DNA from: an uncultured Salinisphaerales bacterium
GTDB lineage: Bacteria; Pseudomonadota; Gammaproteobacteria; Nevskiales; CAJXLF01
Length of the DNA stretch: 64,000 bases
Assembly (NCBI GenBank): GCA_913055805.1
Contig: CAJXLF010000004.1
Coordinates: 124,001 to 188,000 of the forward strand
Direction of reading: 5' to 3'
Both the position numbers and the translations under genes were made by a program. The stretch's first letter is position 1. Every line of letters starts with the position of its first letter. Below the pieces are notes generated by a model. It saw only the letters and a program-made list of their open reading frames with translations. It did no database searches and was not told the DNA's origin. Below are positions 4,464 to 56,311 of the stretch, one piece after another.

Positions 4464-5330
4464 CTAGTTATCGACCACCTCTGAACTGAGGCCCTGCCGC
4501 ACGAAATTCGGGATGGCCAACGCCCCCCTGTGAACGTCCGCGTTGTAGTACTGCGTGTTCAGTTTCTCCACATCCACATCGGCGTAACGCGGTTGCAGTG
4601 AGGCATCCTTGAACGCCAGCGTACCGGACCACCATCCCGAGGGATATAACGGCTGTGGGAAGTTGATCATACCGGTATCGACAAAGCCCGCCGCCCGCAT
4701 GGCGCCATGCATAGCTGCAAGAATCGGCAGATGCAGCATGGGCGATTCACTCTGCTGCACCAGAATGCCCTGCTCACCCAGAGCGCGGAATACACTCTCG
4801 TAAAACGCCTGATTGAACAGGCCTTCGGCCGGCCCGACCGGGTCGGTGCTGTCCACAATCACCACATCCACGCTGCCCGGCTCGGCCCTGGCCATCCATT
4901 CGATGCCATCACCGAAATACAGTTCTGCCCGCGGATCATCATTGGACTCGCACAGCTCGGGAAAATGTTCTTCAGAAAGGCGCGTCACCCGCTCGTCGAT
5001 TTCCACCTGCAGCGCATACTCAATGTCCTGATGCTTCAGTACCTCGCGCAGGGTCCCGCAATCTCCGCCGCCGATAATCACCACCCGTTTCGGGTCAGGG
5101 TGGGTGAAAAGCGCCGGATGCGACATCATTTCGTGATAGAGGAAGTTGTCGCGGGTCGACACCATGGTGCAGCCGTCGATCACCATCAGCTTGCCGAAGG
5201 TTTCCGTCTGATAAATCTCGATCTTCTGGAAGGGCGTCTGCTCTTCCACCAGTTTCTCGCCGAGCTTCAGGGAGAAGGCGGTTCCGGCGGCCGGGTCAAT
5301 TTCGCTGAACCAGGTGTTATCCAGTGTCAT
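4464..5330 (-). CDS. speE: Polyamine aminopropyltransferase (spermidine synthase)
   Basis: Transfers an aminopropyl group from decarboxylated S-adenosylmethionine to putrescine to form spermidine. The 288-residue length matches E. coli SpeE. Motifs include YQTETFGKLMVIDGC, YHEMMSHPAL, the nucleotide-binding GGGDCGTLREVLKH and the catalytic-aspartate region VDSTDPVGPAEGLF. The start is ATG 5330 (MTLDNTWF); longer in-frame versions reach into the speA promoter region and lack homology-like sequence. It is divergent from speA with about 130 bp between them, so both steps of the arginine-to-spermidine route flank one promoter region. Confidence 0.95.
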   Translation of the reverse strand: MTLDNTWFSEIDPAAGTAFSLKLGEKLVEEQTPFQKIEIYQTETFGKLMVIDGCTMVSTRDNFLYHEMMSHPALFTHPDPKRVVIIGGGDCGTLREVLKHQDIEYALQVEIDERVTRLSEEHFPELCESNDDPRAELYFGDGIEWMARAEPGSVDVVIVDSTDPVGPAEGLFNQAFYESVFRALGEQGILVQQSESPMLHLPILAAMHGAMRAAGFVDTGMINFPQPLYPSGWWSGTLAFKDASLQPRYADVDVEKLNTQYYNADVHRGALAIPNFVRQGLSSEVVDN

Positions 5331-53680: not shown

Positions 53681-53953
53681 ATGGCAGAACAGAGCGCGAA
53701 CGAGCACGAACTCGCCCAACTGATTGTAGAAACCCTCGATTTGCAGGACGTTGACCCTGCCGACATCGAGCCCGAAGCGCCCTTGTTCAGGGAAGGCCTG
53801 GGCCTGGACTCCATCGACGCCCTGGAACTTTCGCTAGCGATTTCCCAGCAATACGGTGTGCAGTTGCGGGCTGATGACAAGAACAACAAGGCTATCTTCA
53901 GTTCGTTGCAGTCGTTGAACGCCCATATCGAACAGAACCGTCCCGCCGCCTAA
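53681..53953 (+). CDS. Acyl carrier protein of aryl polyene synthesis
   Basis: 90 residues. The phosphopantetheine serine is in EGLGLDSIDALELSLAI. It should carry the growing polyene chain. ATG 53681 (MAEQSANE) is preferred; an in-frame ATG at 53645 lacks family sequence. Many aryl polyene clusters have two carrier proteins in tandem; only one is seen here. First gene of the long rightward operon, 156 bp from the divergent halogenase-like gene. Confidence 0.92.
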   Translation: MAEQSANEHELAQLIVETLDLQDVDPADIEPEAPLFREGLGLDSIDALELSLAISQQYGVQLRADDKNNKAIFSSLQSLNAHIEQNRPAA

Positions 53954-53980
53954 GATTCTTTTGCGGCGGAGCCTAGCCTT

Positions 53981-54607
53981 ATGCCGGTCCTGCTGCTTGC
54001 CTACCCACTGCTGATCTTTGCCGCTGTCCGTTGGCAGCTGCCGTGGCTGGGCATGCTCGCGTTGCTTGGTTTTGGCGCCCAGGTTTTGTGGCCGGTGCTT
54101 CGTCAGGGCAAGCCATGGGCCTGGCTGATGATGGCTGTGCTGGCCGCCGCCGGCGGCTGGTCGGTGTTGACCGGCGACGGACGCGCCTTGCTGCAACTGG
54201 TGCCGGTGATGATCTTCCTGTTGCTGGCTGTTTTCTTCGGCCGCACGCTGCTGGGGGGGTCAGTGCCGCTGGTCACGCGTATCGCGGCAGCGGCCCGTGA
54301 TATTCCCCACGAACGCATTCTGCAGGACATGCAACCGGCGCTGCTGCGCTATACCAGGCGGGTTACCCAGTTCTGGATGTGTCTGTTCCTCATATTCGCG
54401 GCCGAGGATCTGTTTCTCATGTGGCTGGCGCCGCCGTTGCCTTGGCCCTATATCATTAATGCCGTGAATTTCAGCATTGTTTTCAGCCTGCTGGTGGGCG
54501 AGTACCTTTATCATAGTCGCCGTTACCCCAACCCCAAGCACAATAATTTTCTGGACTTTGCCCGTGACGTCGCGCAATTCGATTATCACAGCCTGCTGGA
54601 TGATTAA
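53981..54607 (+). CDS. COG4648-type membrane protein of aryl polyene cluster
   Basis: 208 residues with about five to six hydrophobic segments (AYPLLIFAAVRW, LGMLALLGFGAQVLWPVL, WLMMAVLAAAGGW, VMIFLLLAVFF, MCLFLIFAAEDLFL, FSIVFSLLVGEYLYH). It ends HNNFLDFARDVAQFDYHSLLDD. The family is found with the carrier protein and acyl ligase in aryl polyene clusters; function unknown. A MITE-like element begins directly at its stop codon. Confidence 0.85.
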   Translation: MPVLLLAYPLLIFAAVRWQLPWLGMLALLGFGAQVLWPVLRQGKPWAWLMMAVLAAAGGWSVLTGDGRALLQLVPVMIFLLLAVFFGRTLLGGSVPLVTRIAAAARDIPHERILQDMQPALLRYTRRVTQFWMCLFLIFAAEDLFLMWLAPPLPWPYIINAVNFSIVFSLLVGEYLYHSRRYPNPKHNNFLDFARDVAQFDYHSLLDD

Positions 54608-54957
54608 GGCCTGTTAACACTGATTTGGCGGTGTCGCCGGAGGCCGTAAAGCCCCAGCGCACGAAACGAGGAGTGAAATTTGCCAATTGTAAATTTAACC
54701 AGGGCAAATGAACGACGAGAGACACAGCGATGGGGCTTTACGGCCCCGTCCCGCAGGGTTGCTCGCCCAAGCCCGCCATACTCTGTTGCGCGGCCCTTCC
54801 CTGGGCCGCGTCCTGACGGACTCGCTGCGCTCGCGACAATACGTTCCCTACGCATTGTTGCTCGCCTTGCCCTTAGATTGGCTAAGGGCTGCGGTGTGCG
54901 CCTTGTCTGGCAGACTTGGTTGAGCAACGCCATCCGCCGAATCAGTGTTAACAGGCC
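54608..54957. mobile_element. MITE-like element, 350 bp, 24-bp terminal inverted repeats
   Basis: Termini 54608-54631 (GGCCTGTTAACACTGATTTGGCGG is the first 24 bp in two blocks GGCCTGTTAACAC / TGATTTGGCGG) and 54934-54957 are complementary at 23 of 24 positions. Inside, GGCCGTAAAGCCCCAGCG (54642-54659) and CGATGGGGCTTTACGGCC (54728-54745) form a second, nested repeat with one mismatch. No transposase; short open frames on both strands end in the same residues because of the terminal repeats. No clear target duplication. It separates two genes of the aryl polyene operon. Confidence 0.75.
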
Positions 54958-54964
54958 CTAGCCC

Positions 54965-56311
54965 ATGAGCAGCCTGCCGTTGATCAAGGGCCATGCCGCC
55001 GATGAGGTCATGGTGCGGCATGAGGGCCGTGATATCACCCGGGCTGAATTCCTGTTGCAGGTCGAGGCGCTGGCCGAGCGTCTGCCCGAAGCCCGCTATG
55101 CCTTCAATTGCTGTGACGACCGTTATCATTTTCTGGTGGCCTTTGCCGCGGTGCTGTTGCGCGGTCAGACGAATCTGTTGCCGCCCAGCCGTGGCCCGGA
55201 AACCATTCGTGATATCGCCCAGGATTATCCGCAGTCTTATTATCTGACCGACGAAAGCGTGGCGATCGACAGTGTGCCGGTGCATTGCTTTACCCTGCAG
55301 GCGGCCAGGCAGGTCAGGAGTCCCGACCCGCAGATACCGGCAGAGCAACTGGCCGCGGTGGCGTTTACCTCCGGCAGCACCGGCCGTCCCAAACCCAATA
55401 ACAAGACCTGGGAAGCCCTGCATATCGGCACCGACCTGGCGCGACGCTGTTTCTTTTCGGACCTGCCAAGGCCGCCTTATATCCTGGCTACCGTGCCGCC
55501 GCAGCATATGTACGGTCTGGAAAAAACGGTGCTGCACGCCTTGCTCAGTGGCGCCGTCATGCACAGTGGCCGCCCCTTGTTTCCCGAAGATATTCGCCGG
55601 GATCTGGAGGAACTGCCTCACCCGCGTGTATTGATCACGACGCCGGTACATCTGCGTGCCTGCGTGAAATCAGGTCTTGAATTTCCATCGCCCGAATTCA
55701 TCATCTCCGCCACGGCGCCTCTACCGATAGAGCTGGCGCAAGCGGCCGAGCAGGTATTTGCCGCACCGGTACGCGAGATTTATGGCTGTACCGAAGCCGG
55801 CAGTCTGGCGACCCGCCGCACGCTGGACGGCGAGCAATGGACGCTATATCCCGATATGCGTCTGCGCATGGCCGACGACCTGCCGCTGCTCAGCGGGCCG
55901 CAACTGGCCGAGCCTGTGCCCCTGCAGGACCTGGTGGAACCACGCGGCGAGCACGCCTTTGTCCTGCGCGGGCGCAATGCCGACATGATCAACATTGCCG
56001 GCAAGCGCGCCTCGCTGGCGGACCTGAATATCAAACTACTGGCCATCGGGGGCGTTGAGGACGGTGTGATCGTGATGCCCGACGAACAGGATGGCGCGGT
56101 GACGCGCCTGGCGGCGCTGGTAGTAGCACCGTCCTTGAACGAGGCAGCCATCCAGAATGCCTTGCGTGCCTCCTTTGATCCGGTCTTTGTACCCCGCCCC
56201 ATTTACCTGGTGAATAAGCTCCCGCGTAACGAAACCAGTAAACTTCCGCGCAGCGCAGTTCTCGCCATGCTTGAAAATCTGCGCAACAAAGAACAGGCCC
56301 TGACCGAATGA
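54965..56311 (+). CDS. AMP-binding acyl/aryl ligase of aryl polyene cluster
   Basis: 448 residues. The adenylate-forming core is VAFTSGSTGRPKPNNKTW (about residues 132-149), followed by PPQHMYGLEKTV, ISATAPLP, REIYGCTEAGS and a C-terminal RNADMINIAGKRASL. It probably activates the hydroxybenzoate starter and loads the carrier protein, as proposed for ApeH-type enzymes. Shorter than typical ligases (about 500-550). ATG 54965 lies 7 bp after the MITE-like element. Confidence 0.88.
   Translation: MSSLPLIKGHAADEVMVRHEGRDITRAEFLLQVEALAERLPEARYAFNCCDDRYHFLVAFAAVLLRGQTNLLPPSRGPETIRDIAQDYPQSYYLTDESVAIDSVPVHCFTLQAARQVRSPDPQIPAEQLAAVAFTSGSTGRPKPNNKTWEALHIGTDLARRCFFSDLPRPPYILATVPPQHMYGLEKTVLHALLSGAVMHSGRPLFPEDIRRDLEELPHPRVLITTPVHLRACVKSGLEFPSPEFIISATAPLPIELAQAAEQVFAAPVREIYGCTEAGSLATRRTLDGEQWTLYPDMRLRMADDLPLLSGPQLAEPVPLQDLVEPRGEHAFVLRGRNADMINIAGKRASLADLNIKLLAIGGVEDGVIVMPDEQDGAVTRLAALVVAPSLNEAAIQNALRASFDPVFVPRPIYLVNKLPRNETSKLPRSAVLAMLENLRNKEQALTE

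Follow-up and report, generated by a model that had tools for sequence, protein, structure and literature searches.

A mobile palindromic MITE with co-changing terminal arms at an aryl polyene gene junction of an uncultured Salinisphaerales bacterium

Between two genes of an aryl polyene (APE) cluster, this genome carries a mobile palindromic MITE. It is a real insertion, one of five copies, and in each of these the two terminal arms are complementary and have changed in concert. Our best explanation as a whole, to which we give a probability of roughly 0.6, is a non-autonomous MITE, mobilised in trans, whose arms evolve together by template switching. The features below are numbered within the window, that is, the whole 64,000-nucleotide stretch of DNA that was analysed.

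53981–54607, + strand: upstream gene of the APE cluster, encoding a 208-aa protein; a homologue precedes the ligase gene in relatives
54605–54606, + strand: left TA of the target duplication, forming with 54607 the stop codon TAA of the upstream gene
54607–54958, + strand: whole element, 352 bp between the TA duplications, with YTAR-flanked ends as in much of the family
54608–54631, + strand: left arm of terminal stem P1, GGCCTGTTAACACTGATTTGGCGG; its middle, 54614–54622, varies among copies
54642–54745, + strand: inner hairpin P2, arms 54642–54660 and 54727–54745, with the conserved unpaired motif ACGAAACGAGGAG / CGACGAGNGACACAG
54689–54703, + strand: 15-nt insertion at the tip of P2, in the window copy only
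54759–54927, + strand: inner hairpin P3, arms 54759–54778 and 54908–54927, with a nested stem 54854–54876 / 54882–54902
54781–54852, + strand: optional 72-nt block, identical in copy C2:273401–273735 and missing from the other three copies
54934–54957, + strand: right arm of P1; its CAGG (54952–54955) lies 9 nt upstream of the ATG
54959–54960, + strand: right TA of the target duplication
54965–56311, + strand: downstream gene of the APE cluster, encoding an AMP-binding ligase

The first-pass annotation had described 24-bp terminal inverted repeats (TIRs), and the left arm indeed matches the reverse complement of the right arm at 23 of 24 positions. A nested repeat with one mismatch was also claimed; it exists with that mismatch (54642–54660 against 54727–54745), at a length of 19 nt and not 18 bp. 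The predicted capacity to fold is borne out by an RNA folding energy of -186.5 kcal/mol, against -127.1 ± 5.7 for shuffled sequences (z = -10.5). The element was correctly placed between a stop codon (TAA, 54605–54607), the third base of which it supplies, and the next start codon (ATG, 54965), leaving a gap of 7 nt. Its core form is about 265 bp, compared with 352 bp in the window copy. No transposase gene lies within these 352 bp, and a coding element was ruled out, no frame being open across all copies. Insertion of a promoter or terminator was rejected, neither a promoter nor an intrinsic terminator having been found within the element. A structured non-coding RNA or riboswitch was rejected on the absence of any match to curated Rfam models at E≤1 and of a wobble preference in the stems, and a phage origin on the absence of matches among phage records.

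The 208-aa upstream protein has no Pfam match. The "tightly overlapped operon" said to surround the element is largely borne out: the two junctions that follow it do overlap, by 4 nt each, but the gap preceding the 208-aa gene (53953 to 53981) is 27 nt.

Relatives show the empty sites. Where both neighbouring genes were found, as they were in 22 members of the order, the APE junction measures from -34 to +22 nt, against 357 nt here, and the atpF-atpH gap is 2 to 26 nt in 29/29 relatives against 270 nt here. The five copies in this genome are the window copy, C2:273401–273735, C1:453634–453896, C2:227196–227458 and C5:205525–205787. Together with IS5/IS427-type TIRs and a TA duplication, these results support the suggestion of a MITE-like mobile element; the copies and empty sites exclude the contrary case named in the first-pass annotation, that of a single copy fixed in relatives, and the empty sites rule out a fixed regulatory region. 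All five copies lie in the sense orientation between the stop and start codons of co-directional genes inside operons (atpF-atpH, nqrA-nqrB, sufC-sufD, flgJ-flgK and the APE pair; nqrA, atpH, sufC and sufD were identified from sequence and gene order). TA is found on both sides of the window copy and of the copy labelled C2b and is absent at C1, C2a and C5; many relatives have CTAG/YTAR. At the C5 copy, the sufC frame has lost its own stop and continues for about 20 codons inside the element (L012, reverse strand, oriented 4481–5284).

The outer end of the TIR, GGGYCTGTT, and the TA duplication match those of IS5-family (IS427-like) elements, and the duplications of the IS427 group are mostly of 2 bp (PMC3281130). 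An ISAba31-family (IS5-like) IS of Acinetobacter lwoffii has TA|GGGTCTGTTGACATTTACT at both ends, and genome G081 of our set contains an 860-bp element around a PF13340 transposase with ends TA|GGCCCTGTTGA and TA|GGGCCTGTTGA. Only the outer 9–18 nt are common to our element and IS427-like elements elsewhere. These ends point to an IS5-family (IS427-like) transposase, acting in trans, as the element's probable mobiliser. The element would have inserted at the TA within a YTAR site, here the one at the upstream gene's stop codon. YTAR targets are rare in coding DNA and frequent at TAG and TAA stops, a bias that explains the start of the elements at stop codons. In 85 genomes the same 17-nt end never occurred as an IS-sized pair, and a PF13340 transposase was found neither in this genome nor in 6 of 7 other carriers tested; since this genome lacks that transposase and the 85 genomes lack a same-end IS, the family may be inactive here. 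When the genome was searched with a degenerate TIR frame, zero-mismatch matches among those listed fell only at the known copies.

By nucleotide search, relatives of the element occur in 42 of 85 genomes of the order. A pattern scan of contigs gave many chance matches, from which a profile search distinguished the true elements. The latter recovered full-length members in a record named Salinisphaeraceae (L170), beyond the order in records named Pseudomonas akapageensis (L147) and Betaproteobacteria (L152), and on plasmids of Azotobacter chroococcum and Pseudomonas aeruginosa. Members are typically 262 to 273 bp and share one architecture: the terminal stem P1 (about 31 bp), hairpin P2, a small centre hairpin and hairpin P3. 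On inspection of the sequence, P2 and P3 seem to be related to one another by inversion. Copies in other genomes are found in both orientations between convergent, divergent and co-directional genes, as judged from neighbour directions called by GC3, a rough measure which mis-called one known gene. In a Burkholderiales MAG (SJ103), members sit at contig ends (L122, L123, L137, L148, L171, L185 and L186). As assemblies break at members, which occupy many contig ends, the number of copies is probably higher than counted.

The two terminal arms of every copy match, while their middle 9–12 bp differs strongly from copy to copy. Among the five copies of this genome the mean distance is 0.63 in the stem middle versus 0.12 in the interior; arm-mismatch counts from this comparison that lay one base out of register at some loci were left aside. 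Both sides have changed at 13 of the 28 pairs of P1 (24 cells), with 98.6% of cells paired; this level of double change was reached in 0 of 500 shuffles, and the covariation was lost once the partner arm was slid. Across 40 family members, 79 of 91 consensus pairs carry double changes and 93.7% of cells are paired, a figure biased upward by the prediction of the structure from the same alignment. The complete genome G050 contains 18 matched versus 7 one-arm changes (shuffled mean, 4.2). Two of its copies are 93.6% alike in their interiors and unlike at 6 of 12 stem-middle sites, where both arms carry the same differences. Together, the co-changing arms and the wide family go beyond what the first-pass annotation had observed.

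The arms most likely match because, as the DNA is replicated, one of them serves as the template for the other. Single-stranded at replication, the element would fold into a hairpin, and a change in one arm would be copied to the other by template switching, so that the stems drift in sequence and remain complementary, as the substitution pattern suggests. Homogenisation of inverted repeats by template switching has been described (PMC8794818, PMC8604942). By the standards of the known mechanism, the roughly 200 nt to be spanned here make a long spacer, unless it is shortened by the inner hairpins.

The main alternative to such DNA-level homogenisation is selection for symmetric ends during transposition: ends would have to be equal or base-paired, either because the transposase picks symmetric ends or because a single-stranded hairpin intermediate is mended, and only symmetric copies would spread. 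The layout of the family ends, with the outer GGGNCTG and an inner part conserved and the middle variable, is in keeping with this, as are 57-bp palindromes consisting of the two ends only, which occur in at least 8 places in genome G049, some with a single change matched in both arms. However, copies changed in one arm coexist with matched ones, and a variable spacer that no protein reads need not match; we judge this reading unlikely. The 57-bp multicopy palindromes are apparently minimal mobile forms. Perfect or near-perfect examples are L271–L274 and L326–L329 (G049), L322–L325 (G050), L276, L277 and L278.

It is likewise improbable, in our estimation, that the folded RNA is functional in host mRNA, having been exapted as an intercistronic element (for coupling, processing or stability) with its compensatory mutations maintained by selection. 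The strong fold, the 13 double-changed pairs of P1 and the five sense copies between stop and start in core operons would all fit, and the last of these is not predicted for a purely neutral element. Selection for RNA pairing should, however, leave G-U far in excess of A-C. Instead, the P1 mismatches comprise 29 G-T versus 32 A-C, those of all stems in the 40 members 116 versus 98, and those on the sense strand of co-directional copies 6 versus 10. This near equality, unlike the pattern of selected RNA stems, disfavours selection at the RNA level and favours homogenisation of the arms at the DNA level. Furthermore, copies elsewhere have convergent, divergent or co-directional neighbours, the last in either orientation, the pattern recurs among recent copies of G050, and five sense orientations out of five, given co-direction, reach only p = 0.06. 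An ordinary MITE, with ends that differ because several transposases each use a TIR of their own, is very unlikely: TIR types do vary by genome and resemble those of different IS5-family elements, but five copies with similar interiors in one genome have five different middles, and that genome is without a PF13340 transposase.

In four of the five copies, inspection of the sequence shows the terminal CAGG to be paired inside P1, with 5 to 9 nt between it and the ATG that follows. In the folded mRNA, P1 would bring the upstream stop codon beside the downstream start codon, and the CAGG would act as the ribosome site of the downstream gene, held inside P1; once a ribosome reached the upstream stop, the 5' arm would be opened and that site released. 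Perhaps, then, translation of the downstream gene depends on ribosomes terminating upstream, a speculative model which we regard as possible though not probable. More doubtful still is the broader proposition that these are a widespread class of mobile palindromes, conserved in fold and not in sequence, with both arms continually rewritten at once, and kept in this lineage only as sense joints that couple translation in core operons.

Compensatory changes are usually held to prove that an RNA is functional. In the present case the covariation of a mobile DNA family is as strong as that of a structured RNA (79/91 pairs), with no preference for G-U. The family therefore lends itself naturally to testing template-switch homogenisation, and it sounds a caution for automated searches for structured RNAs. 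With its good sampling and 57-bp minimal palindromes, it also allows one to ask how TIRs change and yet keep their symmetry.

The family is apparently undescribed so far: our search of freely accessible papers found no description of it or of co-changing MITE ends, and it may be known under another name. MITEPsy1 of Pseudomonas syringae, an IS5-family MITE (PMC3189936), resembles our element in being short, non-coding and bounded by TIRs, in its probable mobilisation in trans and in its insertion at CTAG/YTAA-type sites. It differs in its length of 100 nt, its 18-nt TIR (GGAAGGTCTGAAAAAGCC) and its 4-nt duplication; no interior in common was seen, and co-changing arms are not reported for it (PMC3189936). 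IS427-like elements of the IS5 family (ISAba31 family; on the group, PMC3281130) share the GGGYCTGTT outer end and TA duplication, but measure 780–860 bp and carry the transposase which our element lacks. REPs and REPINs are also palindromic and intergenic, with ends that often supply a TAG stop codon, but they are 20–40 bp, tagged by GTAG/CGTC and RAYT-linked, (PMC3733652), whereas our element has TA/YTAR ends and a length of at least about 265 bp. By their descriptions, ERIC, YPAL and NEMIS/Correia are comparable MITEs which can be transcribed and whose long hairpins influence mRNA (PMC3733652, PMC10969869). The Chunjie MITE of Geobacter, as described in the review PMC10969869, likewise lies in an operon without breaking it; it reaches up to 235 bp and, unlike our element, has conserved TIRs. 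Conservation of the terminal repeats in sequence also sets ERIC, YPAL and NEMIS/Correia apart from our element.

Two further observations concern the interior. The 72-nt block is identical in the window and C2:273401 copies even though their overall likeness is only 88%, and blocks similar in size and place, with a related layout, occur in genome G060 (L085, L087) and in L039. The GGAGGAG-bearing hairpin tip of L050 and L052 belongs to P3, not P2, when placed with respect to the centre hairpin, which looks as though hairpins had been inverted or swapped.
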